Origin: Eutreptiella sp. 'Long Island Sound 2002' | Lineage: Eukaryota; Euglenozoa; Euglenophyceae; Eutreptiales; Eutreptiaceae | Length of the DNA stretch: 64,000 nucleotides | NCBI GenBank assembly: GCA_964036045.1 | Contig: OZ038388.1 | Location: 5,928,058-5,992,057, forward strand | Direction of reading: 5' to 3' | Program-made: the position numbers and the translations under genes | Notes under the pieces: model-generated | Database searches by the model: none | Told to the model about the DNA's origin: nothing | Seen by the model: the letters and a program-made list of their open reading frames with translations, nothing else | Part shown: positions 4,125 through 40,187 of the stretch, in pieces | Layout of the letters: each line of letters begins with the position of its first letter | How positions within the stretch are numbered: position 1 is the stretch's first letter

Positions 4125-4799
4125 GGGCGGCGACCATGAGCTCCAATTCGCAGGGTCGGTCCCGGGCCACATCCGGTGGGGTACCTCGCAACAGCGGTGC
4201 AAAGACAAGCTGAACCGCGACCCCTACCACCTCCGTCGCCTCCTCAACCAGTCTGACATACCCGCGGGCCCCCCGGTGGCCCTGCACTAGCTATGGCTCT
4301 GGATCACCCTGACGGCCGCATGGGCCGCCCGGAGCTCCCAGGAGCCGGTCTGGGCCGCGGTTCCTGATGCCAACGGATACCCCGCCGACTGCCCCGTAGC
4401 CCCGCCGCACCTGATGTGCGCGATCTCTGGCTCCCTCCGCCTAGTGAAGGCCAGCCCGGCGCTCCCCGAGCCGGCCCAGCCGGGTGCGCTCCCGGAAGCG
4501 CAGCGCCGCCCCAGCAGCCAAGGGTGGCTGCGGGGCCCCCTCGGGCGCCCCAGGAGGCCCAAGCAGACGCGCCGGCCCCGGGCCCCCAGGCGGCAGTCAA
4601 CCCGCCGCACGACCAAGGCCCGCTGCTGGGCCCCTCACCGGGGGGACGGTTGTTCACCCCAGTCCGTGATGCCATGGCTATCGCGGAAGGCATACGCCGC
4701 CTACCCGACCCACCATCCGCGGGGGCTGCACACGGCCAAGGCCCGGCACCGCCCCTCCCCCACGTACCGATGCACTGCCCCCAGGTGCTGCCCATCGGG
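4125..4799 (+). pseudogene. LINE C ORF1, exon-like part 2
   Basis: Reading continues from 4126 as GGDHELQFAGSVPGHIRWG and runs to an in-frame TAG at 4288-4290. The same frame stays open beyond it (for example SSQEPVWAAVPDANGYPADC). A proline/alanine-rich segment follows in another frame (4416-4799), ending VPMHCPQVLPIG exactly at the LINE A insertion. That last frame resumes as AALAPAAPYANRP at 19352. The stop and the frame change mark a decayed copy. Confidence 0.5.
4790..4799. repeat. Target-site duplication of LINE A, left copy
   Basis: GCCCATCGGG lies directly before the spliced-leader sequence and recurs at 19342-19351. Confidence 0.85.
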
Positions 4800-4825
4800 A
4801 CTTTCTGAGTGTCTATTTTTTTTCG
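4800..4825 (+). other. Euglenid spliced-leader exon at the 5' end of LINE A
   Basis: The sequence reads ACTTTCTGAGTGTCTA, then T8, then CG. This matches the 26-nt Euglena gracilis spliced leader as I recall it, with no difference. It is followed by ACAGCATTTATG rather than a GT that would begin the SL RNA intron, so it is not an SL RNA gene. Its first base directly follows the target-site duplication. The simplest reading is that a trans-spliced LINE mRNA was reverse-transcribed to its very 5' end and integrated. Confidence 0.9.
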
Positions 4826-4834
4826 ACAGCATTT

Positions 4835-6213
4835 ATGCCATGTACCTGCGCCTCCCGGGCAGGCTCGCGCCGTGAGACCCGGCTCCACAACCTCTGCAGT
4901 TGCGCAGGGAGTTCAAGTACACCAGCTGCTACTCAATACCCATTGAATCAACTGCTGAAACAACCGAAGCAATTAAGTGACAACACCACGAACATTTCGG
5001 TCATGACCTCACTCATAGAATCCAACATGCTGCAGACACAGTGCGTCTGCATCGCCACTGACATATCGGCCGCACCACAGTTTGGAACCTACTCGCAACA
5101 ACCCTTGACAGGGCCCGCAAGACATTCCATGGGCGCCGTCATCCAACAGTGCACCCGCATCGCACCCCGTCACCTACATCATCATGAACACAAGCAACCC
5201 AGACGCAACACAACGCATAAGTCGGTCATATTATCATCCGGTGAGACCAACATGCTGCAGACACACTCCGCACGTGCCATTGCCACCACCTCGCGCCAAG
5301 ACGATTTAAGGCAACAGATTGGGGGACCGATTAGCCTCGTTCTTCATCAGAGCTTCGGATGCCTTGTCCTCTGTTCACTAAAACCTCATGGCTCAGGCCA
5401 GAGCACTACATGTGGTATCCTGCCCCTGTACCCCACGGCCCAACTCATGTGGAGAGACCCCCCCTCCACGCCTTTGCGATTGGCGGTCACCGTTACTAGT
5501 ACGTACCAAGAACAAGCCGTGATGAACTTTACCACTTCGAGGCAGTATACGGAGCAGGGGACCAATACCTCGCCAACAAAGTGCTCCCCGAATGGGACAC
5601 CGTTACCCGCAACGCGAGACGAGATAGGGAAGCGGAGCATTTCAAGAGGCAATATGGAGTGGGACCTGAAAATGCCGGCTACGGGGGCGACTCCACCACG
5701 AGCATACACGCCGTGGCACAAATTCCACTCAGCAGTAGAAGAACCTCAGCAGATCCCCAAACATCAACAGAAACTACAGATCCCGAGCAGTCCAGGAGAG
5801 CAATCACAAGAACATGTTGGCAACCGGACGACGTCGAGCAGATCACATTGAATCAACAGACACAATGGGCCACAACAAGGCGATGGGCATCCAATGACAA
5901 CTTTACGAGCACTCTAGCAAGTCCGGCACCAAATAACTCCAGGGAGCCGGCGGAGCCCCCTTTGGAGCCCTTTTCCGTGCGTATGCCCGTTCATGAAACA
6001 CCCCCTCAACTCAGGACAGAACAAAGAGAACCAGCAGCAGTTGCATTCACCGAATCAATGGTTTTGGATTCTTTTGATGACTCGAGCGCAAAACATCGAA
6101 GAGAGGATTGCCCCACCCCTATAGAGAGGGACCCAGGCCTTGAACCTGGCCCTCACCTGCGCCTTGTCCCAGTTCATGTTCACCTGGTCTTCAAACAACC
6201 AAGGATTTTCTAA
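4835..6213 (+). pseudogene. LINE A 5' ORF (gag-like, unrecognised)
   Basis: Coding character is visible in two frames. The first frame (4835-5851) opens just after the spliced leader with MPCTCASRAG. The second (about 5338-6213) includes EHYMWYPAPVPHGPTHVERP and YHFEAVYGAGDQYLANKVLP, interrupted by TAG near 5497. The protein is rich in Gln, Thr, Ser and Pro. I see no zinc knuckle, RRM or other known ORF1 domain. Its position between the SL and the 2A-like segment suggests a 5' ORF of the LINE. The true start is uncertain; the first ATG after the leader at 4835 is the natural candidate. Confidence 0.45.
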
Positions 6214-6327
6214 CCACTATCTCGCAGTAGGGAATGCCCTATCGCTAATGTGCGCATTGACCCGTGGCATGAGGAGTGGGAGGTGGACATCCCTGAATCG
6301 CATATCAAGGAAACCCCCCCCCCCCCC

Positions 6328-6420
6328 ACCAATGCAAAACACTGAACAATGTGGTTATGACCATGCGCCTGTGACACGGGGGCGTATGCGACCCCAGTTT
6401 CCGTTGCCTCATGGCCCACC
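6328..6420 (+). repeat. REP dispersed repeat, 5'-truncated, inside LINE A
   Basis: After a C-run at about 6317-6327 the copy begins near AATGCAAAACACTGAACAA and ends TTGCCTCATGGCCC. It has the same poly-C-then-truncation form as the copies at 903 and 20347. Confidence 0.75.
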
Positions 6421-6704
6421 AATGCTCACCCCATTGACTCGTGGCAAGAAGAACTGATGGTGGACGTTTCTGGGTATCAAGCATGGTGAGCAGACCAGCA
6501 CGTTACGCAGGAGACTGAAAGATAGGTGGCAGGGCCTGTCCCGCCAAATTATACGCAGCGCACTTGAGGCCCACCCCAAACAATAGGAGCATATCCTGGG
6601 TCCTACCGGGTGCTCGCACATGCAATCACCAATCAAGACAAGCCACACCGAGTGGGGAGAGAAACCACACCAGCCCTTTTTGCTCATCCCAATGTGTTGG
6701 ATAT

Positions 6705-6820
6705 TATTTTTGATCCCCCACCCCGACCAGACCTCTCAAACTAGGTCAAATTGTCACAAAACTATTTTTGATCCCCCACCCCGACCAGACCTCTCAAACT
6801 AGGTCAAATTGTCACAAAAC
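6705..6820. repeat. 58-bp perfect tandem duplication
   Basis: Two identical 58-bp units (6705-6762 and 6763-6820), each beginning TATTTTTGATCCCCCACCCC and ending TTGTCACAAAAC, lie just upstream of the 2A-like ORF. Their identity points to a recent duplication. Confidence 0.9.
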
Positions 6821-6860
6821 TACAAGCTCCAAGGGTGAGTCCCTGGGTGCAGCAGTCAAC

Positions 6861-7455
6861 ATGTTCAAGCCGACACGGACGCACTGGGTTCCTGATCTAA
6901 TATCGTGCGGAGATGTCGAACCGAACCCGGGGCGAGAGCAAACAAATCCAGCAAGGGAGCAAAATCCGGCCGTGGCAGCTCTCGAACGCACCAACGAGAA
7001 GCGTAAGGAAGCGTGGAAACAGTACACGCAAATAAGAGACAAAGTAAAAGACAAAAAACGGCCTAGGGATGATGCACATGACAAGGCCCTGACGGCTGTC
7101 AAAGACGTCTTTGCTGTAAGCAACAGCCTATCAGCATCCGCTAATTGACAAACCGAAGGAACAGATCACGGAAATCAATAAGCAACTCCTGCAAGTGGAC
7201 GAACAGCAAGACTAAGCCCAAGATGCTGACTTACCCCAACTACGGGACCAGGAACATTTCGTGTTTGAACATATGGGCACTTGCCTCGACCAGGTCCCAC
7301 ATCTGGTAGTGCATGGCGCCAGCCCTGAAGCAGCGGGAACAATAGAGAATCAAGGAAACACCATCCAGCAACAACAACAATCGCTCCAGAACCAAAAGAA
7401 CCTGCTGGGACCGAAACCTACATCCCAATTCTACAATGTCAACTCCCCAACCTAG
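6861..7455 (+). pseudogene. LINE A coiled-coil ORF with N-terminal 2A-like motif
   Basis: From ATG 6861 the product starts MFKPTRTHWVPD and continues LISCGDVEPNPG at residues 13-24 (codons 6897-6932). This is the 2A ribosome-skipping signature D-V/I-E-x-N-P-G, but the usual following proline is Arg (CGA at 6933). A Lys/Glu-rich stretch follows (RTNEKRKEAWKQYTQIRDKV) that looks like a coiled coil. The frame stops at 7146-7148; another frame continues as PKEQITEINKQLLQVDEQQD (then TAA) and a Gln-rich end to 7455. N-terminal 2A motifs are known in kinetoplastid L1Tc/ingi LINEs, which is relevant to a euglenozoan. Skipping activity here is doubtful because of the P-to-R change. Confidence 0.6.
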
Positions 7456-7464
7456 CCCCCGTGC

Positions 7465-8851
7465 GTGTACCTGCATGGGGCTTTGCAGGGCCCATGCGCT
7501 GCCACAGTGGGCCCATGTCGTGTGTTGTTGTGTGTGTGTCCGGTGTTCAGTTGGATGTCAAGGGACGTCGTCGCAGCCATCCAGCCTCCCCCGCCCCCCC
7601 CCCCCCCCTGGCCCCCCAGTGCACGCCACGATCCGAACCCCAGACTCAAGCGGCGAAGTGACTCCCCACCCACGCCCTCTACATGCAACCTCTTGTCAGC
7701 TTCTGCGCAAGAGAGTGTAGCGGCAATTGTCAGAGCACGACCCGAACAGTCCCAAAGAGCTGTTGTGGACGTGGTTTCACCACTATGCGATTCTGAGCCA
7801 AAGGAACTAATGTTGAGATGCCATTGGGAACGTTTCCCAACAACTCTCCAAAGTCACACACTCATGCGTATGGAAGGTGTGTCGAAGTCATGGAAAGGGA
7901 TTGGAGACATCCAGCCTGACCAATTGTCCTCCATGTTTCCAGTGGACGACCTCGCATCCTATTTGTAACAGGTGAATGTGATCTCCCTGACCTGATGAAC
8001 GCACCTATCAAGTGTACATTTATTCCAATGTTCTGCCCAGCTAGGCTGGACATCCTTGTACAAGTCACAGTGCAGACAAAATTCCACCCATGGGCCAACA
8101 AGCTCAGTGAATCCACGAAGTGGATTCCCCATGCATTCATTCGTTTCAACAGACCCTTGAAAAATACCACGGGCCATGAACTTTGGTTTTTCGTCATTCA
8201 ATCCTTAGCCTCGGGGATAGCCAACAAGCTAGAGCTGGAGTTCTTCAGTGTGTGGCTCCTCTCAGAAGGGGCCACACTAGCCCGAAAACCCTTCAAGGCT
8301 CAGCGCCCAGACCCCGATATGCGAGTTATACAAGTTGATGAAAAAGACATGCCACATGCTATGCCAAAACCGGGTCTCCAAGGAGCCCAGCGTTACTTTC
8401 ACCCTTGCAGGCTCCGGAGGAAACCGATGGACAAACAACCCCCCCCCCCCTCAACAAAAAAGTCTTTTATGCACCATTGACCGGTGCGCGCCTACAACAA
8501 TTTTTGGGTGTACATGGGGGAACCGACCATTTCTCCCTCATGACTCTTGACGAATATCGCAGCAGAGGCCTGCAGAAATCTGCGCTGGTGTGCCACGTCT
8601 TTTACAAGAAAAACATGAAAGACAAACATGCCCGTACTCTTTGGTACACACTGTACCAGGCCTTGCTACACGCCTTGGCGGAACCATCCCGTTGGAGCCT
8701 ATCGGTCAGAGGTTATAATAAAATGCGCCTCGCTTTCCACGAGGAAAATGACGCGGCAGAATTTTTCAAGGAGGCCGCGGTGGAGCTGCGCTCCACAGAT
8801 TTGCTTTTAAAGGATGAATGCCTCAGTTCCAACCCATGCATGAGAGCCTAG
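7465..8851 (+). pseudogene. LINE A ORF1, C-terminal segments
   Basis: Three overlapping open segments in different frames (7465-7968, 7995-8480, 8405-8851) form one broken coding region. They include a poly-Pro stretch, PRLDILVQVTVQTKFHPWAN, and a final part LVCHVFYKKNMKDKHARTLW. The layout and general character resemble the ORF1 region of LINE B at 30405-32073, but similarity is weak by eye. Frame changes coincide with C-runs at about 7588-7608 and 8440-8449, consistent with homopolymer slippage, in the genome or in the assembly. No enzymatic motif is seen. Confidence 0.45.
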
Positions 8852-9216
8852 AAATGATAAAGCCGCCAGATTGCATGGAGGCGCTCACCGCCTTGTGATC
8901 CATTTCCCCCGGTGCATCGTAGAGTACCATTGTTTCCTCCTTGTCGCTTTCAGAATAAGTGCTGCCTGACTCACAATCGGAGGACGGATCTTTTATCCAC
9001 TGCTTGGTGCGCACCACATGGCGCATCCTGGAGACTTATTGGCACGGGCCTCTTGGGCCGATCTGGATGTATCCTACATGATGCACAACAAGACATAACG
9101 ATGACACTCATATCGCTCTGAGAATACCAATTATCCCTTGACAAGCCCTCTGTCGCAGGAAAGGGAAAGGGCAGGGGGGCGTATGCCAGAGCAGCAGCAT
9201 CTTCTTTGCTTGGGAA
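8852..9216. other. LINE A segment between ORF1 and endonuclease, no gene seen
   Basis: This stretch separates the last ORF1 stop from the start of endonuclease homology. I see no ORF with support and no repeat. Confidence 0.5.
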
Positions 9217-9788
9217 ATGATGCCCCCAACAAAAACGCACCATCCACGCAATAACCCAGGACAGGCAGAGCTACAAGCGCCGACGAGGCCTGTCTGGAGG
9301 TGTGTAGCAGGTCCACCGCAGCTTAAATGCATGACCATTGATCCCAATGGCACCTGGACAAAAATTACCAAAGGCAAACATCGTATACCCAAAGCCACTG
9401 CGCTTCGGCTTTGTGCACAAGGGGAATCCCTTGATTTCATTGGGATCCAGGAGCCCCACTTATACACCGCGGAGAACAATCGTCTGTCCAGTCCATTTTT
9501 GATCCAAGTTTCTACCATTTTGTTTGCTATCCGACAGAGATAGGACGTGGCGGCGCAGCTATTGCGGTCCACTACAGGTGGACCGGGAAACATTCATTTA
9601 ACGTTGATGATCGTATTCTCATTGCAATTGTTCCTAATGCAGAGGGGCGGTCCCTCACCCTTGTCAGCGCACATTTTGATCATCACCCACAGGAACACAA
9701 GGACCAATGGGTGGAGTTACACATAGCTTTGCAAACGTGTCAAGCGGACGGCATTTGTCTTCTTGCTCATCATAACTCCCCTAGAGAC
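9217..9788 (+). pseudogene. LINE A AP-type endonuclease, N-terminal part
   Basis: The APE-type endonuclease is recognised from SLDFIGIQEPHL (catalytic Glu in IQE), then, after a frame change near 9520, GRGGAAIAVHYRW, SAHFDHHPQEHKDQWVEL and ICLLAHHNSPR. In canonical LINE endonucleases the last motif is (G/A)D-x-N; here the acid position is His (AHHNS). The reading is cut at 9781-9788 by the TIR transposon and resumes at about 12137. In the intact element the enzyme would nick target DNA for reverse transcription. Confidence 0.7.
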
Positions 9789-10147
9789 CCAAATTAAAAC
9801 CAATATTTTTAATTTTTCGCCAAAAATTAATTGATTAAACCAAAGTATGCACTTTTTGTGGGGGGTTAGGGGCGTCGCTTGGGAAAAATTTCACCCCTAC
9901 AGTGTGTGAACCATTTTACGCCTTGGTTTGGGGGCGGGTGTCACCCGTCTTGATGTGTAAAAATATTAAAATGGCTCTTGGCTTTAAGTTTTGAGATTAT
10001 TTTTTGGTGTAAAATTTGTAAATTTTAGATATTATGCGTTGCCGCGATTAAAATTTAAACCAACAATATTTAAACAAAGTTTCCAAAAATGAAACCTCCC
10101 TACGCAAGCACAAAAACACATAAAATATACCCTTTAGCCTTTGCGGC

Positions 10148-10650
10148 TCATGTGCTTGGCCATTCGGCCATTGTTGCCGTCTTAAAGCTCCCAAGAGCCC
10201 GTTTCCGGGTCCCATAGTGCCGGCGTAGCTTGGGTATCGCTTGGGGGCTTAGATGGGTTAGTGGGGGTATTTGGGTCGGGTTGAGGGTTTTCTTGGGGGT
10301 TAGTCGGGGGGTTAGCCGGCTTTGTTGGGGGGGGGGGGGGGGGGGGTTGGTGGTGGGCGTCTTGCCCTTGCGCACCTTTTGGAGGTGCGCCCCCGCGGCT
10401 TTGGCCGTGCCGAAGATGAGGTGGCGCTCCACCTCTTAGAGCTTGGGTTTGTTTGGGTATCTCACTCAAACAACCCCGCTCCCGCGGGTGTGGACACCGG
10501 TGATGGTGTCCACCTCTACCCCGACCCCGTATGGGACGTGGGCGGGGGTTCCCACGAGGGGATCGGGGGGTCCCTGCTCCCCTTCCTAATTCTTCGCCGC
10601 CCCCGCTTCTTTCCCACCCCCTTCCGCCTTCTCTCCCGCCCCAACACCGG
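10148..10650 (-). pseudogene. TIR transposon copy 1, C-terminal Pro-rich exon with Tudor-like remnant
   Basis: In one minus-strand frame a remnant of the SH3/Tudor-like segment seen in copy 2 is visible (HVPYGVGVEVDTITGVHTRG, then VRYPNKPKL and EVERHLIFGTAKAAGAH), broken by two in-frame stops. In another frame a Pro-rich stretch ends ALWDPETGSWEL, matching the copy 2 terminus KMWDPTTGSHEV. Long C/G runs (for example 10326-10346) separate the frames. Confidence 0.5.
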
Positions 10651-10947
10651 TCAACCACGATGTGGGGTTTTGCTATGCACCCCCCCATTATCGAAGTTCC
10701 GACCTGTTACCTGATATTGCTGACGGGCCGCCGCCTCGTTGTCCAAAGTCCGGCGCACGTCCCTCCGCAACCACGCCGCCGCCGCCTTGTCCCACACCCC
10801 CATATTGTAAATAGACCCCACTTGGGGTGATGTGGAGACCCCGATGAGGCGGCGAATAAACGGCCGGTCACCCCCAAGGACAAGCGCAGCAGGCACCCAA
10901 GTGGATGCCCAACAGAAACTTTTGCAGTCGTGAATGGTCTGCAACAC
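10651..10947 (-). pseudogene. TIR transposon copy 1, putative transposase exon 2
   Basis: The product includes VLQTIHDCKSFCWASTWVP, GGDRPFIRRLIGVST and VGSIYNMGVWDKAAAAW, closely matching copy 2. Homology fades after the QQYQ region, where CAG/GTAACAGG could be a donor site, so the true 3' end of the exon may be near 10720. Confidence 0.55.
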
Positions 10948-11108
10948 CTACAAAAGAGTGTGTGCATTGATATCCGGGCATCACTTTTTTGTTTAAATTT
11001 TAGCATCAAATTTCCTTCGGCTTAAATTTTAAACAATTTTTGCTTTTAAACGAGGAACTTTGAAACGAAGCGAGCCCGAATTCAATGCAACACCAAAGCG
11101 CCAAGTAC
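10948..11108 (-). other. GT-AG intron of TIR transposon copy 1
   Basis: This 161-bp AT-rich interval begins GTACTTGG and ends TTTTGTAG on the minus strand. Its position matches the first intron of copy 2, and the flanking codons join as ...NPQ/VLQTIHDC, parallel to NLK/GLQSIQDC. Confidence 0.65.
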
Positions 11109-11921
11109 CTGAGGGTTCTCGGCCCAAATAGTGGCCAAAGCGGCCATGTCTTTGTCCCCGCGCACGGCCATCCGGATGACCCACAAGTAGGCGGGTGTGT
11201 GGCCCCGTTTGCCGTGGTTGAGGAGCCCAATAGACAATTGGGTCCAACTCCCACCGGCACACGGGTAGGCATCCCCGCGCACAGTAAACGTGAGGGGCCG
11301 GTTCCAATCAATGACGTCCACTAGCGGTGGACGCGATTGAATGTAGGGGGCCCATGAGTGCACGGGCCAACTGCGGCCAGTAGCGGGTGGGTCGTCCACG
11401 TTCACTGGGGGCCGCAACTCTAGCGGCTCAGCCATATCCTTCCATGTGTCCAAGAAGGCTTGCGGCGTTGGGATGGGGCGGGGGAAAGTGTGGCCCGTAG
11501 CGGCCGTATAGTCAATCCCTCGCCGGGTCATGAACTCGGAGAGGTGGCGGAACCCCGTCTTTGTGACATTGAGGTCCATGAGGAGCTCAATAAAATCGGG
11601 CGCGGGAAAAAGGAAGGAGGCGTATTGTTTCACCGCCTCCACTTGCTTATTACGAACAAGGGAGGGGTAGCCAACGTCCGTGGCCTCGGACCATCGGGCC
11701 CGGGCCAAGGGAGACGAAGCCACCCACTCACCAAGGAGTTGGGAGACCAAAGGGTCCCGCAAACTCTTGGCTCCACTCAAACGCACAAGCATCATGCGAA
11801 GCGCGAGAATAGTGTCTCGAGGGAAAGGCATAACAAGTGCTACACAAGAGAAAAGGGGGTATGGAGTGGGGTTGGCGGTGGGCACAAAGAAGAGGACTAA
11901 GGGTTGGACACCCTTAGGCAA
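11109..11921 (-). pseudogene. TIR transposon copy 1, putative transposase exon 1
   Basis: The minus-strand ORF is collinear with copy 2: shared blocks LVRLSGAKSLRDPLVSQLLG, TFPRPIPTP and CAGGSWTQLSIGLLNHG. The GD in VRGDAYPCAGG and in GGDRPF (exon 2) are candidate acidic catalytic positions of a DDE-type transposase; this is inference. Homology between the two copies begins at CACTTGTTATGCC, just after TTGTGTAG, so a further 5' exon is possible and the start is uncertain. The exon ends CCTCAG followed by GTACTT on the minus strand. Confidence 0.6.
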
Positions 11922-12136
11922 TCGAACACCCCTACAAGCCGATTGGGCAACATTCTACCACATTAAACGGCCTCAAGACCCTAGCATACACATGCAATTA
12001 ACGGCACAAATACTTTAAAATCTGAAAAAAACTAGGTATTCTTGTTTTACACGTTCAAATTGATTATTTTAACATTTAACACCTTTCAAAAATTGAAATT
12101 GAAAATTTGGCATATTGGATTTAACGTAGGTCTCTA

Positions 12137-12565
12137 GGGTCCCTGGCGCTCCCTGCACAGGATGCGGCGCGTCCCCCTGCAAAGGAGTCCCTGCAGACCA
12201 GGGAAGGCAGAGAAACAGAACTGGCCATGCTTGCTCGCTTGCAACTTTACGATGCATGGGAAGAGGTACCGTACGACTCAGAGACACAGGAAGTACCCCC
12301 TGGGTACACGTACGGGTACAACCTACATAACAGGCCCCAACCAAACGGACCGCGCAGGTTGGATAAGGTACACATTTTGGCAAGGCTCAAGGATGCCATG
12401 GCTACGGCGTACACACCCTTCGTGGCACAGTCAGACCACAAAGCAGTGGTGGCCGACCTGGCCCCACCGGTCTTTGTACAGCGCGCCCCCGCTAGAAATG
12501 CCCCTTGGGCTTCGTCAGTCCTTAGTTCCTTTGAATACTATCACACAGAAATTGAGTGGCATTGA
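12137..12565 (+). pseudogene. LINE A AP-type endonuclease, C-terminal part
   Basis: After the transposon the endonuclease continues: REGRETELAMLARLQLYDAW, RRLDKVHILARL (the R-x-D/I-D-x-I/V segment) and AQSDHKAVVADL, the SDH motif with catalytic His that closes APE-type domains. LINE B carries the same order (RRIDRIHATSELL, NPDHKAVLAA). A stop follows at 12563-12565. Confidence 0.7.
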
Positions 12566-12746
12566 TGCATCTCCCAAATCCCCACTGGAGGATTGGGCAG
12601 AAGCGGAAAGAATCATACAACAGACAGCAACACAGCACCACAGGGAAACTACGGTAAGGCCACCCACTACCACTTTGGCAATCTTACTCTCCTCCGCGAG
12701 GGACCAAGTCTGCCAGTAGGGATGGCATTACTTCTGCTCCCGGGGA

Positions 12747-13712
12747 ATGGCACCGACTACACAAACACAGGCCTATGCGCAGTTGGTACAACGTTATGAA
12801 AGAGAACAGCAAGATAGGATGGGTTTGCATCAGTTAGGTGAACTTAAAGGGCTGCTCGCAGGTGCTGACATCAATGACGAGTCACACAAACAGTGCCGCA
12901 AGCAAGTCGAAAGACTTGCTCAACCTAAAGAAAGCCAAGCGGGTGGCCTGGATCAAAAACAAATATGGCTCTTCCGTTACCGACCCAGTAGGAGTAGCCA
13001 AAGCCCTTAGCGACTATTGGAGTGGCATCTCCAAGGAGGGGGCGGAACCCCGTCCCCCGTCTCAATGTGCCGAATACGTGCAATCCCTCCCGATCCCGAC
13101 ATCGCTGAAGAGACTAGCCCCCGCACTTTCCAACCTATTGTCCCTGGAACTGGTGCAGGAGGCGCCCAAGAGGCAAGTCTCACGAGCCTCTCCAGGCATT
13201 GATGGATTTGCCTTAAGCATACACCAAGAATTTCATGAATTTGTCTTTGTACGTATGCTAGAAATCCTGCAGCATGCACAGGAAGATGGGAATTTCCCGG
13301 AAGCATGGAACAAGGGCTTGATAGGGTGCATCCCAAAAACAGCAGGGGCTTGCACATTTGAGAAATTGCGTCCCATTGCACTCCAGCATATAAAAAAGAA
13401 GTGGTCCATGACTGCCCTTGTCATCAAGGTAGAAGACATCTTGCGCGAGATCACTCCCCCCCCTCCCAACAAGTGGGATGCATTAAACACAGACAAATGC
13501 AGCATCACGTTTGGGGAGTCAGAGGAGAATGGCACACAACGAAGTCCATGATGCTTCTTACCATTGACTACCGCAACGCGTTCTCCACGCTCTCGCATGA
13601 TTTTATCAGAGCAGGTCTCACATTCTTTTCTGTCCCGCCAACTTTTGTGAACCTAGTCATCTCTTCACTTCGATCACAATACCACTTCCTGGTGGCCAGT
13701 GCGGCCATTAGG
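12747..13712 (+). pseudogene. LINE A reverse transcriptase, N-terminal part
   Basis: A linker with LNLKKAKRVAWIKNKYGSS leads to RT fingers: SRASPGIDGFALSIHQEF, PEAWNKGLIGCIPKTAGACT and RPIALQHIKKKW. A frame change near 13500 leads to MLLTIDYRNAFSTLSHDF, the RT motif A with its catalytic Asp. The frame then reads QYHFLVASAAIR and is cut at 13712 by a MITE. Removing the MITE joins it to EVIFYQEAGIGQGDPFSP. Confidence 0.75.
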
Positions 13713-14119
13713 CGGCCCGAAAATTGCTTTGCGGGGGGGGGGATGGCATGGGCGCCTGGCGAAGGAGGGGGGGGCGGGGGTTCCCGAAATGGGCTTCCGT
13801 GCCGGGCTCTTTGTTTTGTGTAAGGACGGTTGTTGCCACCAAAGGCGCCGGAACACAAATTTTGGCCTGGAAAATTTTTTTGACTCAAAAAATTTCCCCC
13901 ACATATGTGTAGTCAAAATGATCAGCGTGACGTGGGGATCATTTTGAGCCATGTATGTTGGGGTCGGACCCCCCCCCCCCCCCCGGCACGGCAGGCTGGG
14001 CAGCCCACGCCCCCCTCCCGGCACGGCGACCAAGGAGGGGGAGGGGGGGGTTGGGCAAATGGGCTTCCGTGCCATCCCCCCCCCCCCCCCCCGCAAAGCA
14101 AATTTCTTCCCGCCTTAGG
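13713..14119. mobile_element. MITE with poly-G terminal inverted repeats (inserted in LINE A RT)
   Basis: TTAGG at 13708-13712 is duplicated at 14115-14119. The ends are inverted repeats built on AATTGCTTTGCG, then a G-run, then ATGGCA (left, about 13722-13747) and TGCCAT, then a C-run, then CGCAAAGCAAATT (right, about 14070-14103). There is no coding capacity. Removal of 13713-14119 restores the RT reading frame, which fixes the borders. Confidence 0.8.
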
Positions 14120-14845
14120 GAGGTAATTTTCTATCAGGAAGCAGGCATTGGTCAGGGTGACCCGTTTTCACCCTAGCTCTTCTCCTTTTGCGCAGCAATC
14201 ATCATTTACCCACTTCGGCAACTGCGTGTGAAAATGGGCATGTACCTCTATGTAGATGATATCCTCATCACGTTGGGTCCAAAGACCACCAAGCAGGAGC
14301 TAAAACACGTGTTTGATGAGCTCGAGCGTTTTTCAGCTTTCAGTGGCCTACGAAAAAACGTAGGCAAGTCAGCGTATGTCACAAAGGGTACCTTACAGCC
14401 GGAGGCTTTGCAGTTCATGCAAGAATCGGGCCTACAACACGAAACAAAGGTCCGCTACCTTGGAGTGCAAATGGGGCACATGTGCGTGAAAGAAGCCTTT
14501 GTAGGTCCCCTGCGAGAAGCATACTGCAGAGCGCGAATTGCAGCCACCATCGCGCTATCCATACCGGAGACAACCACACTCTTGAAAACGTGGATCCTCC
14601 CCACGTTATTGCTGACGGCCAAGGCTTACGTTGCCGATCGGTCTGTAGTCTCAGCCCTACACACTTTGTACAACATTCTCTTCCGTTTTGATAGTTGGGG
14701 AATCACAACCCATCAACTTTCCCAGCACAGGGACAAAGGAGGGTACTCGGTACCCTTGCCCCAAACGTGCTGCGCTGCCCAAGGGGGGACAGCTGCAGTG
14801 GCAGCACTGACCTGTCCCACAATTATGCCGATGTATGTAATGTAG
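14120..14845 (+). pseudogene. LINE A reverse transcriptase, C-terminal part
   Basis: RT motif B is read as EAGIGQGDPFSP and is followed by an in-frame TAG at about 14174. From 14228 the frame contains MGMYLYVDDILITLG, with the YVDD catalytic box, then FSAFSGLRKNVGKSAYV and VRYLGVQMG, the usual thumb-side motifs. LINE B has the equivalent MMYADDLIIFLD and VQYLGVRLG. The segment ends at TAG 14843. Confidence 0.8.
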
Positions 14846-15738
14846 GCTTTCGTTAAATTTTGCACTCATTACGGAATCACCACCAACCAGAAGGGTGCTT
14901 GCGCTGACAAATTGGGGCCCGTCCCCATGAAAGGAGCGGGTTACCTCTCACAGAGTTATACGGCGTATTCCTTGCACGCAAGGGCACCAAAATCAAGATG
15001 TCCCTTCCGTGCAAAGATCTGCCGCTGTGGCACTCCACAATCTTCTTTAACAAGCATCATAATACGTATTTTGCCCCCCAGCTCATCAGACAGGGAGTGC
15101 TGACGGTGGTGCATCTGTTTGACAGCAACTTCGACTTACAGCCACGCATGCACAAATTCATCTCACGCTGGTGGCTTCCCAGCAGGCATCAAGGCAGTAT
15201 CAGGCATTGCCTATAAATGATTGGTCTCCACCGGCTGTATGGCTAGGCTGTTGGGCAAAGTCCCCCTGTCTGGCTTACATCGCGCCTTCAAAGAAGATAC
15301 ACCACCGTGCAAAGTCCGAAGGTTGGACGGCCTTCTGGCCTGCCAACCTTCCCCCCGAGCTTAAAAGACGTTGCATATCAGTGCGTGTGGCACAAACTAA
15401 CAGTGCGGCACCGCCTAGAACCTTGGCTAAAAACCTCTCCCTGCCCCATGTGTGGAGCGCGGGAGACTGTGTTCCACGCCCTGCACAACTGTGCATTCTA
15501 TGCCCGCACGCACAGACTCATGGTGGAGTGCTTTGGGGAATGGAGAATGAATGGTAAAACAGGACGGTGGATGCACGTCCCACTGGCACACACATTCAAC
15601 ACCACACCAGGGCTCATCCTCTGAACAACAAACCCACATTTGAACATTATGTCCATCGGTGGCCCCAAGAGCTGAAAACGTTACTGAAAGCCACTGAAAG
15701 GTTACCGTGGGGACGTCCAAATTTACTTCAACTCGCTC
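14846..15738 (+). pseudogene. LINE A region between RT and RNase H, with Cys/His cluster
   Basis: Fragments in several frames include DLPLWHSTIFFNKHHNTYF, parallel to the LINE B segment PPWHSVYFRNEYNCSYYNM. They also include CVWHKLTVRHRLEPWLKTSP followed by CPMCGARETVFHALHNCAF, a Cys-x2-Cys...His...Cys pattern typical of the zinc-binding segment of LINE ORF2 proteins. LINE B has KCPICSQNESIKHDMVECSMF at the same place. Frameshifts break the segment. Confidence 0.65.
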
Positions 15739-16081
15739 ATGCACTTCATACAGGAGGGTACTATTAAGGCAGTGCACATCAATTGGCACACCTGTCGAGT
15801 GCATCACGCACCATTAACCCTGCACAACAATCCAAAACAGCAACAACGCTATGAACGCAAAGCGACAGTGGCACAACAGGTCATTGCCATCCAACAAGTT
15901 TACCTTGCTGAGGGATGGCACATTTTTCATTTTGATGGCTCAGCCAAATACTACCCCAAGGCCCGTTGGGTGGGCGGTTTTGGCAGTAGCCACCAGCGGC
16001 ACTGGGAGTTCTCCTCCCACTGGACACGCTTGAAAAGCAAACCAACAACAACACATGTCGCACAATTGCACATCACGGAAT
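15739..16081 (+). pseudogene. LINE A RNase H, N-terminal part
   Basis: The RNase H start is GWHIFHFDGSAKYYPKARWV, with the first catalytic Asp in FDGS, followed by THVAQLHITE. The reading is cut at GGAAT (16077-16081) by a 1.4-kb insertion. The same frame resumes at 17457 as ELKAAISAIVKVSQKT. Confidence 0.7.
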
Positions 16082-17460
16082 CATTTTTTCCTAGGAGTTT
16101 TTAGATCCAGTGCCTGGCATGTTGTTTCCGAAATCCTCAGGCCAATCGGGCGCATTGTTGGGAACATCGCGGCCGAGTGGTCCGGCCGATCTCCCTTCAG
16201 CCTGGGCTCCCCGAAGTGTGCCTGCCGAAACTGGTCGGGAAAACGCTCCCGATGTTTGGGAGCAACACTCCCGATGATTGCCTCCGTTTTGGGAAGCATT
16301 GCCTCTGAACATCGCTTCCGATGTTCGGAGGCACTGCTTCCGATGGTTGGTTGTCCTCATACAGAGCACTGCTTCTAGAAGGCTGTGGGTAATGGCATGG
16401 ACCAACCAGGACGTCTTCATCCCAAAAACCGTGCCCTAATCCCATGGGTTGTGACAGAAAGTTGTGAACCGACTCATGACACTGCGACCCAGATCGGTGC
16501 CCGCGAAATAGGTGAATTCGTACTTGGAGGATACCATCACCACAGAAAATGAAGATACTTTTTTCCGACCGGCATGCCCCGTCTTTAGAAAGCAATTGTG
16601 TCACCACTCATGCTCATGCACCAGGGTTTCTATCTCCTCCTTGGGTGCATATTGAAAACGTAGTGAAGCCCCTGTTGTCGTCGATGTTGATGCAACATCT
16701 AGCTCAGCACCCATAAGGCATTTGTTGAGTCAGGGGGACTTCTTCCCTACTGACGCTGAAGCGGCTTTGAAAAAGGAGACCAAGCCATAACAAATTCGTG
16801 TTGTTGCGTATGTCTGTGTTTGTGTATGCAAGGTGGGGAGGACTAACTCGGCTGGGCGGGAAGGCGGCCGTGGTGGAAGGGGGGCGGGGCGGAGGGGGGG
16901 AACCCGGCGCTCCGTGACTCGGGTCCAGCATTGGGACCCTGTTATTGGCCTCAGCTGGCCATGGTAGCCGGGGCAGCTTCTCCTTGAGGAGTGGGAAGCA
17001 TTGTATATTAGTGAACTTTATATATGGGTGATGGTGGTGGTGCTGGTGCTTGGAGGGGTGCTGAATTTGGCTTTTTTTTGTGACATTTAAGGTGTTTGGT
17101 GGGGGGGGGGGGGGTCATTGTATGATCGTCCCTAGGTATGGTGCACACCTCACACCGGGCGTGCGCACCCAAAATCGGCTCCAAAAACGCTTCCGGTGTC
17201 GGAAGCAAGGCTTCGGATGAATGGTTGCAAATTGCTGACCAAAGTTGGGTGCAGTGCCCCCACCGATCGGTCGGGGAAAACGCTTCCGATGTCGGTAGCA
17301 ACGCTCCCGATGGGCGGAGGATGATTGGCCCCGTTGCTGACAATGTTGCCAGCAAAATTGGAAGAATGACTGTCACCAAGGGTTGGCATGGTGCCAAGTA
17401 TATCGGTGTCAAAAAGAAAAAATTCGGTACTGTGCGTTTGAGCGGCACGTGGGGCGGAAT
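16082..17460. mobile_element. 1379-bp insertion in LINE A RNase H, type unknown
   Basis: GGAAT at 16077-16081 is repeated at 17456-17460. Deleting 16082-17460 joins ...LHITE to LKAAISAIV in frame. Near both ends are related direct repeats: TCGGGAAAACGCTCCCGATG and AACACTCCCGATG around 16236-16280, and TCGGGGAAAACGCTTCCGAT and AACGCTCCCGATG around 17270-17315. No clear terminal inverted repeat and no convincing ORF are seen. It could be a non-autonomous element with subterminal repeats. Confidence 0.55.
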
Positions 17461-18240
17461 TGAAAGCGGCAATCTCGGCAATTGTGAAAGTCTCTCAAAA
17501 GACAGTCATTTTCGGGGACTCTACCTATGTGCTGGATGGCGTGGCCGGCATCGCCTATACGTGGCGGCGACCGCAATGGTGCCTGCCCACAGGTCCCGTT
17601 CCCCACTCTGACCTGTCGGAAGCCCTTGACATGGCGCAGGACGTAATTCAGTGGGTGTGGTACCCATCGCACCAGGGCATACCAGGCAATGAAAGGGCGG
17701 ATGCCCTAGCCGAGAAGGGGAGGCAAGACCACCCTCTCCTAAGGTATGCTTCCCGAGAGAAACAGGAGATTTCTCACACACCCAGCCCGGCCGCCCCAGT
17801 CAAGGGGCGTTCGCAATATTTGTTTGACTGCGATTCTGATATGGAAACAGCCGTGGCCATGACACTTTTCAACACACCTTCCCACGCCAGCTCAGGCGAC
17901 CAGGAAACGGATGATTTTCCAACACCACACTGTGTGGTGAGTTCGCTGTTGGGTTCACCCCATCCCTATGAGACCCCCTCCTCCCCTGGCGGTTTGGAGG
18001 GTGTTGGGAATGGAACCGATGTCTGACACATGCCTTCCCTTTGAGGATAAAGAGGCCTTGTCGCCGACGTCCCAACCAATCTACTTGCGAGCATCAGCCC
18101 TACCAGATCCTGAGCCCCAAGATTCGGTAAAACGATGCCTCTTTGTCAACTCAGATGAGTGCAGCACTGATGCCAGTGATACCTGTAAAGCTAGGAAGCC
18201 GACAGCTAAGCTGAAGACTCGACGGTTTTCGCCATAATTC
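17456..18240 (+). pseudogene. LINE A RNase H, C-terminal part and following region
   Basis: The frame continues LKAAISAIVKVSQKTVIFGD with STYVLDG (catalytic Asp), then VWYPSHQGIPGNERADALAE, the classic closing motif of RNase H with His and Asp. After the domain comes a Ser/Pro/Asp-rich stretch to TGA at 18024. A second open segment (17968-18237) overlaps in another frame and has no recognisable motif. Retrotransposon RNase H removes template RNA after first-strand synthesis. Confidence 0.75.
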
Positions 18241-18985
18241 CCGGCTAGGCCCCCACCACACCTTGTGAGACGCAATGCGGTCCCATGCGGTCCCTCTTGT
18301 TCCACTGCACTTAGACAGTTGCAAACACATTGGCCTGTGTCCTGTCACGAGAGCACACCCCAGCGTCATGACGCGGGGAGGACGGCATGCAAAGCGTGGT
18401 AGCGGAGAGCAGCCCGACGGCAGAGACCGCCCACACCGCCTACGCCACAAGAAATACGCCAGCGATTCAAAGTACAAGCACTCAGATCAGTGAAGGAGAT
18501 GGAGGATGAGGCCATGGGGCTTCTCAACTGCACCCATGACGCCATCCGGTAGCGTCAAAACCAACAAGTGCGGATCAGGCTACAGATCCAGGGACCGTCC
18601 CACATGATGGTAGAAGTCGTAACAACACGTGGCCCACCAAAACCAATGTCGCATCAGGAGCTGTTTTCGTTGATGGTCGCCATGTACTAGATGCTTAAAC
18701 AGCGTGTTTGTGAAAATATGCGCTTAGTGGGACCTGGAAAAGAGAAGACCAGATGCACACCTTCAATTGGGAGGCCATGTTGATGGTACCCACTGTGGCA
18801 GGGCGCCGGCCAATGCGCACATCACCGGGCAGATCCGGGGATTATTATCACCTCTAGTTTGCGGGGATGCCTGAAGTGCTGAGACACTTTCAACAAACAT
18901 TATTCTATGCAAGTGACCCCATCTCGGGGGATGCGACACGTTTTCTTTATACGTTGTTAGTGACACTTTCTTCAGTGAGGCAGTA
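18241..18985 (+). pseudogene. LINE A C-terminal domain, decayed
   Basis: The last part matches the end of LINE B. FNWEAMLMVPTVAGRRP parallels FQWEAILHCPTVEGHRA, and FQQTLFYASDPISGDATRFL parallels FQKTLFRQADPVSGDALRFL. Several stops interrupt it. The shared domain ends near 18985. Its role is unknown. Confidence 0.65.
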
Positions 18986-19341
18986 CTAGTGGAAAGCAGC
19001 CACGTGTCTTGTCATGGGCGCAGCCCAGGGTGTCTTGTCGCCCAGGGCAGATATACCTGTTTTGTCAGGGAGATGAGAGCATAATGAGGGAATAAGCAGT
19101 TTAGGGCCTGCCTTCACGGACCCTATCTGTTGTTTTACCTTTTAAGCTTAGCAAGCGTACGGGGGGATCAATAGGCGGAGGCAGCACGACGGAACAGATC
19201 GTAGGCAGAGCAGGCCACCACAGAGCCAGCACTTATGCACATCTGACTGTACATACTGAACTCCAAGAACCTCCTGAACTCTGAAGTGGCTACGATCCCA
19301 CCTTTGAGGGGCCGAGGGGAGCGTTTGAAAACCTCGAATGA
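18986..19341 (+). other. LINE A 3' untranslated region
   Basis: This is sequence between the conserved C-terminal domain and the right target duplication. No ORF, poly-A or simple-repeat tail is evident; the last bases before the duplication are TTTGAAAACCTCGAATGA. Confidence 0.6.
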
Positions 19342-19351
19342 GCCCATCGGG
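19342..19351. repeat. Target-site duplication of LINE A, right copy
   Basis: GCCCATCGGG is identical to 4790-4799. The LINE C frame ...QVLPIG/AALAPAAPYANRP is continuous when one copy and the element are removed. Confidence 0.85.
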
Positions 19352-27444: not shown

Positions 27445-30366
27445 TAGGGCCAGTTGTTCTCGTCGCGCAGCCTGGTGGCGGCGTTCCCACGGGAGATGCA
27501 CCCCCTCTTCACCCAGCTGGAGGCCCCATCTGTAACCTTAGTCTGGGGCCCACCAGGGGACGACGAGGCTCTGGAGGCCTTGGCGCAGCTCGCAGCTGAC
27601 GGGGAGGTGCCCACGGAGGGCCTCAGGTATGGCGTCTGGGTGCGCACGGCGTCCTCGACCCACACCTCGGCGCAGGCGGATTTCCTGGATTTCTTCTAAG
27701 CGTACTGCTCACAGCCCTGCAAAGGGTGGGGGGATCACATGGTCCGCTTTTGCCGTGTGGTGCTCACAGCGGCCTTGACCAGTTTCAAGGCCATGTACGC
27801 CCTGCTGCGGTCCCGGGGTTATGCTGTATGCTGCCGCGACTCCTTGGGGTCCACGGTCTACCACAAGGTGGGCCGCACCTCGCATTGGAAGCTAGTGCGA
27901 GACGAGGACGTGGCGGTGTAGTCCGAGAGCGCCGCCTGGGACGTGGCCGTCACGTGGCCCGGGCTCATACGGGCCAGGACCCCGCAGCCCTGGCCTAGCG
28001 GACCGGGTGGTGCTTCCACCGCCCACCCGGTGGGCGCGCTTGATGCGCGCCGGTAGGACCGGGTGGCCCGCGGGCCTGTCGATGACACGGGAACCCTGCT
28101 ACGCTACGCCATGGGCGAATCCGCGTGCGCGGTGGCAGGGCCGCGCCCTGAGCTGGTGGGCCACGCCGACCCCGTGTCGGTGTTGGACCTAGCTAAACGT
28201 GGGGCTCGCCCGGACATGGTCCTCACTGTCGGCATCCCGCCGTCCCTGTAGGGTGCCATCCCGGAGGTGGTCATGGCCCCAGCCGCAACCATATGGGCGC
28301 TGTTCCCGGGCTTTACCCTCCAGCTGCTCGGGGACGGACCCCTGCTGGCGTTCCAGGCGGGCACGGCGCCACCCGGGGTCCTCGCGGCCCCGCACCCCCT
28401 AGTCCCAACGTGGCATCGGGGGGGGGGGGGGGTCGGCTGAGCCCGCGGCCGGGCACCCCCCTCTCCCAGGGCTGGGATCCCCAATGTTTCGCACAGCCCC
28501 GGGGCGACCCAGCCGCCAGGACCCGTAGGATAGCGCCACTCCAGGGGGCCATGACCTCGCCCCCCTGGGCTGAAGCGTGCTCCCGCACACCGCCCTCCTC
28601 TCTCCCGTGACCGGCATGCCGCGCCTCGACCCGCAGAGCAGGCACCTCAGTGGGCATGACCTCACCCCCTGTAGCCGGCAGGGCGCCCAGCGTATAAGGG
28701 CGCCGAGCGTGCACCACTGCTTGGCCCTCCGTGACCACCCCGACGCACTCGGTTGGCTCAGTCTAAGCGGGCAGACGAGCGCGTTGTCAGCCCCGCCGCG
28801 GGCCGGCGGTGGCGCCCCCGCGAGTACATTAAATGGAGCTTCTGCATCGCAGCGAATCACCTGTCCTGTGCCCGCTCTGCCTGCCCGCGTCACATGCCAC
28901 CGCCCGTGCCATTGAGGAACGAGCACCGGGAGGTCACGGCGACCCGTAGGGGCGGGGGGCGCACGGGGGGACGGTTCGGGTACAGGCAGGGGTCCGGGAG
29001 CGGTGCCAGTGCTGCATGGCCAGCAGCCAGGTTAGCGGGGCGGGGAGACACCTGCTCCTGAACCCCCTCCCTCCCTCCACAAGGACTCCCCTCCCCCAAT
29101 TTTTGGCGAGCGCCGTCGCTGGCCCAGCCCAACGCCGCTCTCCACGAGCCCAGGGGCACGGCCACCCCGGAGAGATGTTCGGGCATGGCGCGACCTCAGT
29201 CGTGGACCCGGTCATGCGTGCGCGGCATCCCCACCCCCTGCCGGTAGGCCCGGCGACGCCCTCTCGCTCCGCGCAGTGGGTACAACTAAGCACAATGCCG
29301 CGGCACCACGTTGCGTACCCTCCGTACCGTGCCCTCCCGCCGCCGCCCCCGTACCGGATGGGCCGTCACAGGCTGCAGCCGGTTTCCCGCAGCTGCTTGA
29401 ACACCTGGGAGCAGCGGACACGCCGCTGGATGGCGCGGAGCAACTCGGCGCCGGCCCTCCGCCTGTGGCTTGCCCATGTGAGCCACGCGCAACCCCCCGC
29501 GCCACCCGCGCACACAAAGGTCCCTCGCGAGCGTTGCTTGTGCGCGGCACGCCCCCTAGGAGCAGCCTCCCAGCCTCCTCAGCCCGGAGGACATCCTCAT
29601 GGGGTGCTTCCTCAGCTGGACGGCCACGGGCGCGGACGCTGGATGGGGGCTGTCACCCCCCAGCGCGTTCCCCAGGGCGTGGCGGTATCATGGCCCGCGC
29701 TCCATGAGGCCCTCATGAGGCCCTCAACTGGTGCTATGGCGCGGCAGCCCCGCTCTGGCGGTTGCCCCGCCTCCACTGGAGGGATGGCGCGCAGCCCTCT
29801 CTGGTGGCCCCCCTGCTGGCACCCCTTTGGGACTTGGGTCCCCTCCCTGTCCGCCGCGGCGGAGCCGCCATCCCAGAGGCCTCGACCAGCGCCCCCCCAG
29901 GGCCGGGTGCTCTTGATCGACGGGTGGAACAACGAGGCCGAGTGCTGCGGGGGCCATTGGGTGGGTGTCACCCACGGCGGCACCATCAGGTGCCTCTCCC
30001 GGGGCGACAAGTCCCTCGCCGTGCCCCCGGACCTACATGCGGCCAGCGGCGCGGTGCTGGCCTCGATCCCACGGGTGTATGCTGTGTGGTATGCGGTGTT
30101 GCCCGCCCCAGGGTCTCACCAACCGCCCCCGCAACACGAGTAGCTCCGCGCAGGCGACGACGCCACTCGTGGCTCGCAACCCGCGCGCTCATGCGGGCGT
30201 GGCGGCAGCGCCGTAGGGTGCAGGTCGCTTTTCACGCGCCCCGACCGAGGTGTGCGGGCACGGGGCGGCCGTCCGCTGAGGCTACCGTGACCCCCCCCGC
30301 CCTGCCCCGCCCTTCCCCCGCCTAACCCCTGGCACGGCGACAGGCCTGCCCCCCCCCCCCCGGCCC
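27445..30366 (+). pseudogene. LINE C C-terminal region, decayed
   Basis: GC-rich coding-like fragments in changing frames: VAAFPREMHPLFTQLEAPSV; VVLTAALTSFKAMYALLRSR with YHKVGRTSHWKLVRDEDVAV; ADPVSVLDLAKRGARPDMVL; and, near the end, RVLLIDGWNNEAECCGGHWV followed by VAVPPDL-like text and ASIPRVYAVWYAVLPAP. The GGHWVGV segment with a nearby Asp-Gly faintly recalls a cysteine-peptidase histidine box, but I would not name a family. High GC inflates ORF lengths. The region ends where spliced-leader sequence of LINE B begins. Confidence 0.35.
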
Positions 30367-30390
30367 CCTTTCTGGGTGTCTATTTTTTTG
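30367..30390 (+). other. Decayed spliced-leader exon at the 5' end of LINE B
   Basis: CTTTCTGGGTGTCTATTTTT with two more T and G matches the Euglena spliced leader except for the first base, one A-to-G change and a shortened T/C end. It lies about 15 bases before the first LINE B coding frame and directly after a C-rich LINE C stretch, the same arrangement as at 4800. Confidence 0.75.
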
Positions 30391-30404
30391 GTGTCTTTTT
30401 GTCA

Positions 30405-32073
30405 ATGCTTGCCCAGGCCACTGGGCCTTGACAAACTGCCGCCGACGCCACCACACTGTCCCCTGGCGGCATCAGTGTCCGGGACACCCAAGCCCGCCTG
30501 GCCACAGGAGGTCATAGTTCTTGCCGACGCCGGACAATTGACATGTCTAGCAGCCATCGATGACGCCGACTACATCATCTCGGACGAAGTGGTGCTGGAG
30601 AGTGGAGTTACAGAGGCTGCCTCCGTGTTATTCGACCTCTTCAAGGACTGCGACTCGTCCGAAAAACTAGCTGCCGCTCTTTACGGCAGTCGCCCCAACG
30701 TTGTGCTCGTTGGCGAAATGACAGAATATTACAAAATTCAAGGTGCCATCAAGAGGCTGCCTACCGATGTGCCTATGCTGGGACGCTTTGTCGCCATCCT
30801 GCTTGAGCCTGTCAGCGATGAAGATGACAAACCATCGTTTCTCAATCGCGCACTCGCCCTCAACTCCAACCTACCGTTCGGGTGTGAAAAGCTTCAAACG
30901 CCGGACAGGTCTCTCATGCACATACGCACACATGATCGATTTGATGACTGGATAGCAAGCAGCACAAGGGACTCCAGGAGTATGTCGCCGCCCCCGACCT
31001 ACAAGCTTCTGCGACTTATGACACCTGGAGCTGAAGTCGATAAAGTGGTGTTCCATGAACCAGACGTACGGGACAACCAGTACGCCATCCAGGTCCACAG
31101 TGACCTAATCAATGGTCTACTAGGAGCTATTGGCTTGAACTCGGATGAGGTCCATCTCCTTCCAGGAACAGACCCACGGAACTCAAAGTTGTTCTTCACG
31201 GAGCTGAACGAGGAACAAGTGAACGCCGTGGGCTCGCAGTTTGGATCCAAGGCAAGGTTTCAGACGCAACCAATGTAATGGTATCGAGGGGCCAATTTGA
31301 CGAACATGTTTGCTGTCTATGAGGTCTAGATAAAGAAGACGCACAAGGAAACATGGTCACCTATGCTATACGCTTCAGTTCTCGCAATGTTCTGGACGGT
31401 CCCTGGCGTCTTGCAGCCGCAGTCACCGGTGAAAATCCATGTGTTGGGCCCAAGTAAACTTCTACTGGGCCTCACAGACACTGGGCACTCGCTGCCGACC
31501 ACCGGATATAACGAACTGGTGGCAGCCATTGGAGCCGTTTTCAAAGACCTCAAGACAGGGCAGTTCCTCGACCGAGACATCATCTCCAAGCCTGCTATCC
31601 CATCGACGTGGAAGAAGGAGCTGGTGGGCACAATATACATCTTGGATATGGCGCCTTGATGGTACCTCTCGGATCTGAAGAAAGCTCTTGCCCCCTCGGT
31701 GCACTGCCGATACATCGCGGACCGCGTCATGTGGAGCGTTGGAGAAATGCGCACAGCCACGTGGCGACTAACCGGGGAAAGTGTGTCGCAACTGGTTGCA
31801 AAGGTCGGTCTACTTGTCCCATTCTGGAATGCCCCCCATGTTTGTGATCTCAGAAGCGGACTACGAAGTGCGGAAAAAACGCATCACAGACCGAAGAATA
31901 CAGATGATGCCAAAACACGCAAACAAGGCCTAATCATGGCGGGTGAAATTGCCAAGGCAATGGAATTGGACGACCAAGTCGACAGGGTCATTAGCTGTCT
32001 CAAAAGAAAACGCGACTTGAGGGAGGATCAGGCTTCGTCGACCAATGGATTGGCGATGGTGCAGAAACCATGA
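30405..32073 (+). pseudogene. LINE B ORF1
   Basis: The first frame runs to TAA at 31278 and includes VIVLADAGQLTCLAAIDDAD-like text, AASVLFDLFKDCDSSEKLAA and ELNEEQVNAVGSQFGSKARF. A second stretch in the same phase (31363-32073, with TGA at 31657) includes VKIHVLGPSKLLLGLTDTGH, SVSQLVAKVGLLVPFWNAPH and DQVDRVISCLKRKRDLREDQ. No RRM, zinc knuckle or 2A motif is seen. The final TGA (32071-32073) overlaps the ATG of the endonuclease ORF (32070), giving ATGATG, which suggests coupled translation of the downstream ORF. Confidence 0.55.
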
Positions 32074-33113: not shown

Positions 33114-33355
33114 GCGTTGCGACTCCTACGTGTCTCCACAAAAGAATTAGTCACGCCGGCGGTGTATCAATTCCTTTCATCGCTGGGAATAGCAGCAACC
33201 GAAGCAGCACAACTTACACCCTCTTGGTTGGGGTATATGAAAAGGCACAACGTGACACAACGGGCATGGGGACGCTCTCCAAACTCAAAGGGATAATCGC
33301 GTCCAGGGAAACTTCAGGGGACTTGGGAACTAGAACAAATGAACTATACTAGCTG

Positions 33356-38195: not shown

Positions 38196-38339
38196 TCTGC
38201 GAGACGCTGCACCTCAGCGATGCCCTGGGGCTCAGGCGAGTGCGGTCGGCACAAAGAGACGGAAGAGAAGCAAATCCCTGGAGCCCACGCGTGCCGCACG
38301 CACAGAGTACGACGGCGAGTCCAGCAGTGAAGGAGAATA

Positions 38340-40164: not shown

Positions 40165-40187
40165 TCCTCGCATTCGCTCGTATAAGG

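Follow-up and report, generated by a model that had tools for sequence, protein, structure and literature searches.

In kinetoplastids the elements SLACS, CZAR and CRE, which belong to the LINE (long interspersed nuclear element) type, target the RNA genes of the spliced leader (SL), and in flatworms the TRIM elements, which are of the long terminal repeat type, are linked to SL genes and carry SL RNA genes. Here we consider two elements, LINE A and LINE B, found in a 64,000-nucleotide stretch of DNA from the euglenid Eutreptiella sp. 'Long Island Sound 2002' (contig OZ038388.1, positions 5,928,058 to 5,992,057 of the forward strand), which at its full length is called the window below. Like SLACS, CZAR and CRE they are of LINE type and linked to the spliced leader, but unlike SLACS and CRE they own the SL, their targets differ, and they were not found inserted into SL RNA genes. 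With flatworm TRIM they share the union of mobile element and SL in one unit, whereas no TRIM element is a LINE with a spliced leader exon at its end. The L1Tc/ingi elements are likewise LINEs of Euglenozoa with a common short 5' sequence, which according to the available text of PMC8190864 is Pr77, a 77-nt promoter yielding unspliced transcripts, whereas in LINE A and LINE B it is the SL. The nearest known parallel is provided by dinoflagellate retrogenes carrying relicts of the dinoflagellate leader, DinoSL; the available parts of PMC6050394 and PMC12014239 call the retrotransposon responsible for them unknown. In these retrogenes, as in LINE A and LINE B, the retrocopy has at its 5' end a DNA copy of the SL, but according to the same sources they are host genes and their relicts are often truncated or arranged in tandem, whereas here the LINE itself appears to have been copied and the SL bounds whole families. 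Among the matches listed, no report of SL-headed LINEs was found in the open-licence PMC literature. With a probability of about 0.8, we regard LINE A and LINE B as members of two diverged families of LINEs in a single euglenid genome, the full-length copies of which are headed by the trans-spliced leader of the host.

The insertion of LINE A is delimited by the following features.

4790..4799, plus strand: GCCCATCGGG, the target duplication to the left of LINE A, exact match in the window
4800..4825, plus strand: perfect 26-nt SL, the 5' terminus of LINE A (SL published for E. gracilis in PMC6242988, available part)
4800..19341, plus strand: LINE A including later internal inserts, its RNase H split by other sequence
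19342..19351, plus strand: GCCCATCGGG, the target duplication to the right of LINE A, exact match in the window

Both copies of the 10-nt duplication reported in the preliminary description are in place. They are the only two exact occurrences of GCCCATCGGG on the plus strand of the window, and one exact minus-strand copy is located at 17306. The first base past the left duplication, 4800, opens the sequence ACTTTCTGAGTGTCTATTTTTTTTCG, which agrees with the SL of E. gracilis in 26/26 positions, exactly as had been claimed; the available text of PMC6242988 gives the same SL for E. longa. Within the 64 kb it is the sole match to the SL at up to 3 mismatches, and none of 100 shuffled sequences contained such a match. 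The leader of LINE A is directly followed by ACAG instead of the GT that opens SL RNA introns (SL RNAs and outrons of E. gracilis keep GT and AG ends, as far as described in the available part of PMC10679874). Because ACAG follows and GT does not, it was interpreted as a spliced exon rather than as part of an SL RNA gene.

The preliminary description also held that removal of LINE A restores the frame of a host element named LINE C. Deletion of the insert in silico did produce a single open frame of 282 codons across the insertion site, which is weak evidence because the surrounding DNA is so G+C-rich. This joined frame gave no Pfam match and no tblastn relative elsewhere in the window, so that the identity of the host as LINE C is unsupported.

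The second element is delimited in the same manner, and its 3' end is set by a short fragment residing within LINE A.

30359..30366, plus strand: left duplication of LINE B, CCCGGCCC, starting at the right-hand border of a C-run
30367..30390, plus strand: worn SL, the 5' terminus of LINE B, in which a manual count gave 22/26 bases retained, with two substitutions and one two-base deletion
30367..43496, plus strand: LINE B, split by a different retroelement that spans approximately 35397-40613
43497..43504, plus strand: right duplication of LINE B, CCCGGCCC
6325..6335, plus strand: CCCACCAATGC, the 11-bp duplication to the left of the LINE B fragment within LINE A
6336..6414, plus strand: 5'-truncated LINE B copy of 79 nt within LINE A, from which CTCATGG was established as the 3' end of LINE B
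6415..6425, plus strand: CCCACCAATGC, the 11-bp duplication to the right of the LINE B fragment within LINE A

The worn leader of LINE B has C in place of A, the first base of the SL, but its 22-nt core differs from the SL by one mismatch only, and matches at up to 3 mismatches were registered in 0/100 shuffles. Since the 3' end of the element was established independently from the truncated copy, CCCGGCCC can be said to lie exactly outside both ends of LINE B; in random pairs of left and right positions equal 8-mers appeared 6 times per 100000. That the sequence GTGTCTTTTTGTC of LINE B represents a second, worn SL is speculation.

Further copies were searched for among public proteins using the SL plus leader frames of both families as a query, and proteins with E values up to 10 were accepted. 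This query returned 22 proteins: P0161, which is the LINE A frame of the window, P0162, which is a second copy of LINE A, and 20 proteins of LINE B. Together with P0102, found in the search with the first open reading frame (ORF1) of LINE B, the LINE B proteins P0103 (found by both searches) and P0163-P0181 make up 21 insertions outside the window. In all 21 a flanking frame passes into SL-encoded residues and then into the common LINE B leader, and in 17 of them the SL is kept from base 3 or earlier. Fourteen copies read the SL in the frame FLSVYFF, and in 12 of these the preceding residue (H, N or D) fits the first two bases of the SL. No other common upstream sequence took the place of the SL in any of the 21 copies; copies devoid of the SL should have been findable, because the leader part of the query should suffice alone. 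The second LINE A copy, P0162, has residues matching the SL plus one extra T, followed by the LINE A leader, and its flank is not visible because the protein begins at a start codon within the SL.

The flanks of the 21 LINE B copies are mutually unrelated at E 1e-3, except for P0167 with P0171; they include a RING-finger protein, a reverse transcriptase (RT), a LINE A copy and LINE B ORF1, and those of P0102 and P0168, which reside on contigs of equal length, differ from each other. This bears on the idea that the SL is merely the target of insertion, i.e. that the LINEs land beside SL sequences as SLACS-type elements do in SL RNA genes. SL-gene-specific LINEs do exist in kinetoplastids, but in both window copies the SL lies inside the duplications, and in the 21 LINE B copies it stands between differing flanks and the element, which makes targeting of this kind very improbable. 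Just as small is the probability that the SL matches arose by chance or belong to a dispersed sequence having no connection with LINEs. A third SL-like site, at 53563, does precede a gene that is not a LINE, but shuffling produced no chance matches, both clear SLs of the window open LINEs, and the SL occupies the same place in 21 LINE B relatives. Proline is frequent just before the SL of the LINE B copies (87/231 residues versus 312/3212 further upstream), and PPP is present within 14 residues of the SL in 13/21 of them. This excess agrees with, and the duplications in the window also point to, a suggested preference of LINE B for insertion into C-runs, though it is possible that it reflects a bias of open frames in G+C-rich DNA.

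Several observations weigh against our view of the two families. The relatives are known as proteins alone, so that their SL bases were deduced from residues, and the query used for the copy search itself contained SL residues. The first one or two residues of the SL are absent or changed in 4/21 LINE B copies (P0172, P0174, P0175 and P0177), and P0180 and P0181 are weak matches (E 5.3 and 7.3), which carry LSECLFFF, i.e. the other frame of the SL, followed by the expected LINE B leader. No domain-library match to an endonuclease was obtained in LINE A or LINE B, and by eye only there are motifs in the LINEs which we take to be AP-endonuclease-like. Recurrence of the LINE A duplication by chance is possible in 3-5% of cases: a random 10-mer of the window was repeated 5-20 kb downstream in 628/20000 trials, and a 10-mer drawn from 4300-4790 in 1019/20000. 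By itself the 10-bp duplication is, therefore, evidence of modest weight; it gains weight because both breaks fall on a sharp change in G+C content (0.75 and 0.70 for the 500 flanking bases on the outer side versus 0.54 and 0.50 inside). Finally, the LINE B leader opens with GT, like an SL RNA intron. The junction reads CG-GTGTC, and the GT start of SL RNA introns is documented in the available text of PMC10679874, so that the 5' end of LINE B might have arisen by fusion of an unspliced SL RNA with the LINE, e.g. through template switching, and would then not be a spliced leader. However, GT follows any site by chance in approximately 1 of 16 cases and LINE A reads on with ACAG, and we consider such a fusion improbable.

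The SL-headed copies behind the proposal that a trans-spliced LINE RNA was reverse-transcribed as far as its 5' end and integrated afterwards comprise two in the window, one more of LINE A and 21 more of LINE B. The proposal is supported in that two LINE families conform to it, trans-splicing itself being judged from DNA sequence. The LINE pre-mRNA would receive the SL by spliceosomal trans-splicing, the mobile LINE RNA would bear it at the capped 5' end, and reverse transcription would proceed to this end. LINEs integrate via target-primed reverse transcription, and integration of LINE A and LINE B was presumably target-primed as well. Direct abutment of the SL on the target duplication would then be observed because reverse transcription ran to the capped end of the RNA. 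The accompanying suggestion that the leader serves as the mobile 5' terminus of the element also gained support: as a check for full-length copies that start elsewhere without the leader, another common upstream sequence was looked for and appeared in 0/21 LINE B insertions, the four copies with altered first SL residues being noted above.

If LINEs indeed move with the SL at their head, the question arises how such elements persist. The junctions between SL and body, CG-ACAG in LINE A and CG-GTGTC in LINE B, lack AG, so that under the usual rule a copy headed by the SL could not undergo splicing there again. One may assume that a few parent loci possess a promoter and an AG-ended outron, that every jump starts from freshly trans-spliced RNA and that the SL-headed offspring are dead ends; we give this somewhat less than even odds. 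The impossibility of re-splicing at AG-less junctions can be counted both for and against it. The identity of the SL with that of the host in both families while the remainder has diverged is in line with it: behind the SL, P0162 and the LINE A frame of the window are just 54% identical over 194 columns. Outron-like sequence was, however, found upstream of 0/21 LINE B copies, though parents may be few, and the SL is conserved no better than the LINE B leader, because in the 13 of 21 copies compared SL residues differ at 7/104 positions and leader residues at 7/221, at least four of the seven SL differences falling in the T-run. Alternatively, the SL may have been captured once per family and become a DNA-encoded 5' end, with RNA starting at its first base and no trans-splicing required. 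This is conceivable though rather doubtful. It agrees with the lack of a parent with an outron among the 21 LINE B copies, with the absence of AG at either junction and with the trypanosomatid LINEs, whose unspliced RNA originates at an internal 5' promoter (PMC8190864, available part). It also has to assume promoter activity of the SL end, and each of two families must hold the exact SL under selection while the remainder diverges. If the leader were indeed an inherited, DNA-encoded part of these LINEs, their RNA would bear it in advance, mimicking a trans-spliced mRNA, and could move and be translated without trans-splicing; we mention this tentatively.

If the full-length copies of both families are headed by the trans-spliced leader of the host, trans-splicing marks the mobile LINE RNA and gives its insertions a fixed and readable 5' end, and the SL could serve to find and date full-length insertions in such genomes. 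SL-tagged retroposition would then extend from the genes of dinoflagellates to retrotransposons themselves, in another lineage of eukaryotes.

Assignment of both elements to LINEs is based on the following coding parts.

5500..6213, plus strand: open frame of LINE A with a conserved counterpart in a further LINE A copy (P0166, 63% over 183 aa)
12838..13548, plus strand: LINE A RT, first part (LINE-1 ORF2p, E 2.1e-7 by sequence; about 31% identity to the LINE B RT)
14177..14842, plus strand: LINE A RT, second part (RVT_1, E 1.4e-6, 28.6 bits, slightly below the Pfam cut-off of 29.6)
17442..18023, plus strand: LINE A RNase H (RNase_H, E 1.1e-15, above the Pfam cut-off)
30505..31278, plus strand: LINE B ORF1 (60 public proteins listed, the window's own included)
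33353..35033, plus strand: LINE B RT in two overlapping frames (RVT_1, E 7e-6 and 9.4e-7, both slightly below the cut-off)
41530..41970, plus strand: C-terminal part of LINE B RNase H (RNase_H, E 1.3e-8, above the cut-off)

The RTs are of LINE type according to their sequence match with LINE-1 ORF2p, the window fragments being slightly below the Pfam cut-off and their relatives above it; in the LINE B relative P0005, for instance, the RT exceeds the Pfam cut-off and matches LINE-1 ORF2p with E 3.1e-14. Among the matches listed in the search with the LINE B RT there were 100 proteins, 85 of them having 51-97% identity and residing on ENA contigs (the window's own included), while IMG/VR contained no relative of this RT. 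Target duplications amount to 10 bp for LINE A, 8 bp for LINE B and 11 bp for the LINE B fragment, and for neither LINE A nor LINE B do the listed repeats include one shared by both ends, as long terminal repeats would be. Shorter copies in the window have the same 3' end as LINE B, and an 11-bp duplication flanks one of them; this property was examined for LINE B. The RTs of LINE A and LINE B share about 30-34% identity, and no match between the 5' regions of the two elements is listed in the filtered self-BLAST. With respect to an HDV-like ribozyme at the 5' end, as in L1Tc/ingi, Rfam gave no match in the window at the gathering score, and sub-threshold matches were present at both LINE 5' ends.

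Both elements contain other sequences. The RT frame of LINE A is interrupted near 13709-14123, and a minus-strand element resides inside LINE A near 9800-12100. An element of unassigned type is present in two copies of opposite orientation with 74% identity, one inside LINE A (10727-11871) and the other at 24680-25838; it has a frame of about 300 codons, and the frame at 24481-25467 has no Pfam match. Another frame of LINE A, at 6714-7148, contains GDVEPNPGR, a sequence that we take to resemble the 2A peptide motif except for its final R and that lies behind a perfect tandem duplication of 58 bp (6705-6822). The RT-bearing element inside LINE B (35397-40613) has split direct repeats at 35397-35544/40285-40432 (97%) and 40188-40287/40514-40613 (99%), i.e. 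an anatomy resembling that of DIRS-like elements; Pfam gave RVT_1 and no recombinase for it.

The SL-like site at 53563-53586 has 3 mismatches in 22 bases, which was not reached by any of 100 shuffles. Directly behind it lies one more feature.

53572-54825: intact frame of 417 codons with four hnRNP_Q_AcD stretches (E 1.5e-70)

This site was not counted as an SL copy, as its CTCACTTTCTGAGCTTC stretch resembles the upstream unit CTCATTCTGCTTC (by eye and in one alignment). The T-run of the site, together with CAG, resembles an ordinary acceptor, and behind the gene no common word exceeding 8 bases was detected. Probably the similarity to the SL is a coincidence and 53563-54825 is an ordinary gene with its own trans-splice acceptor, though possibly it is a retrogene. 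In collections that are not euglenid, the full SL was absent from IMG/VR and its 24-nt core from GTDB genomes; three exact matches to an 18-nt SL core in IMG/VR diverge from the SL within a few bases and look like chance.

At the end of the window an RT-bearing element (61153-64000; RVT_1, E 3.9e-10) has a frame of 772 codons followed by a frame running off the window end, and no SL was seen near its start. A tandem array of five near-identical copies, spaced by approximately 502 bp, occupies positions 55909-58213.

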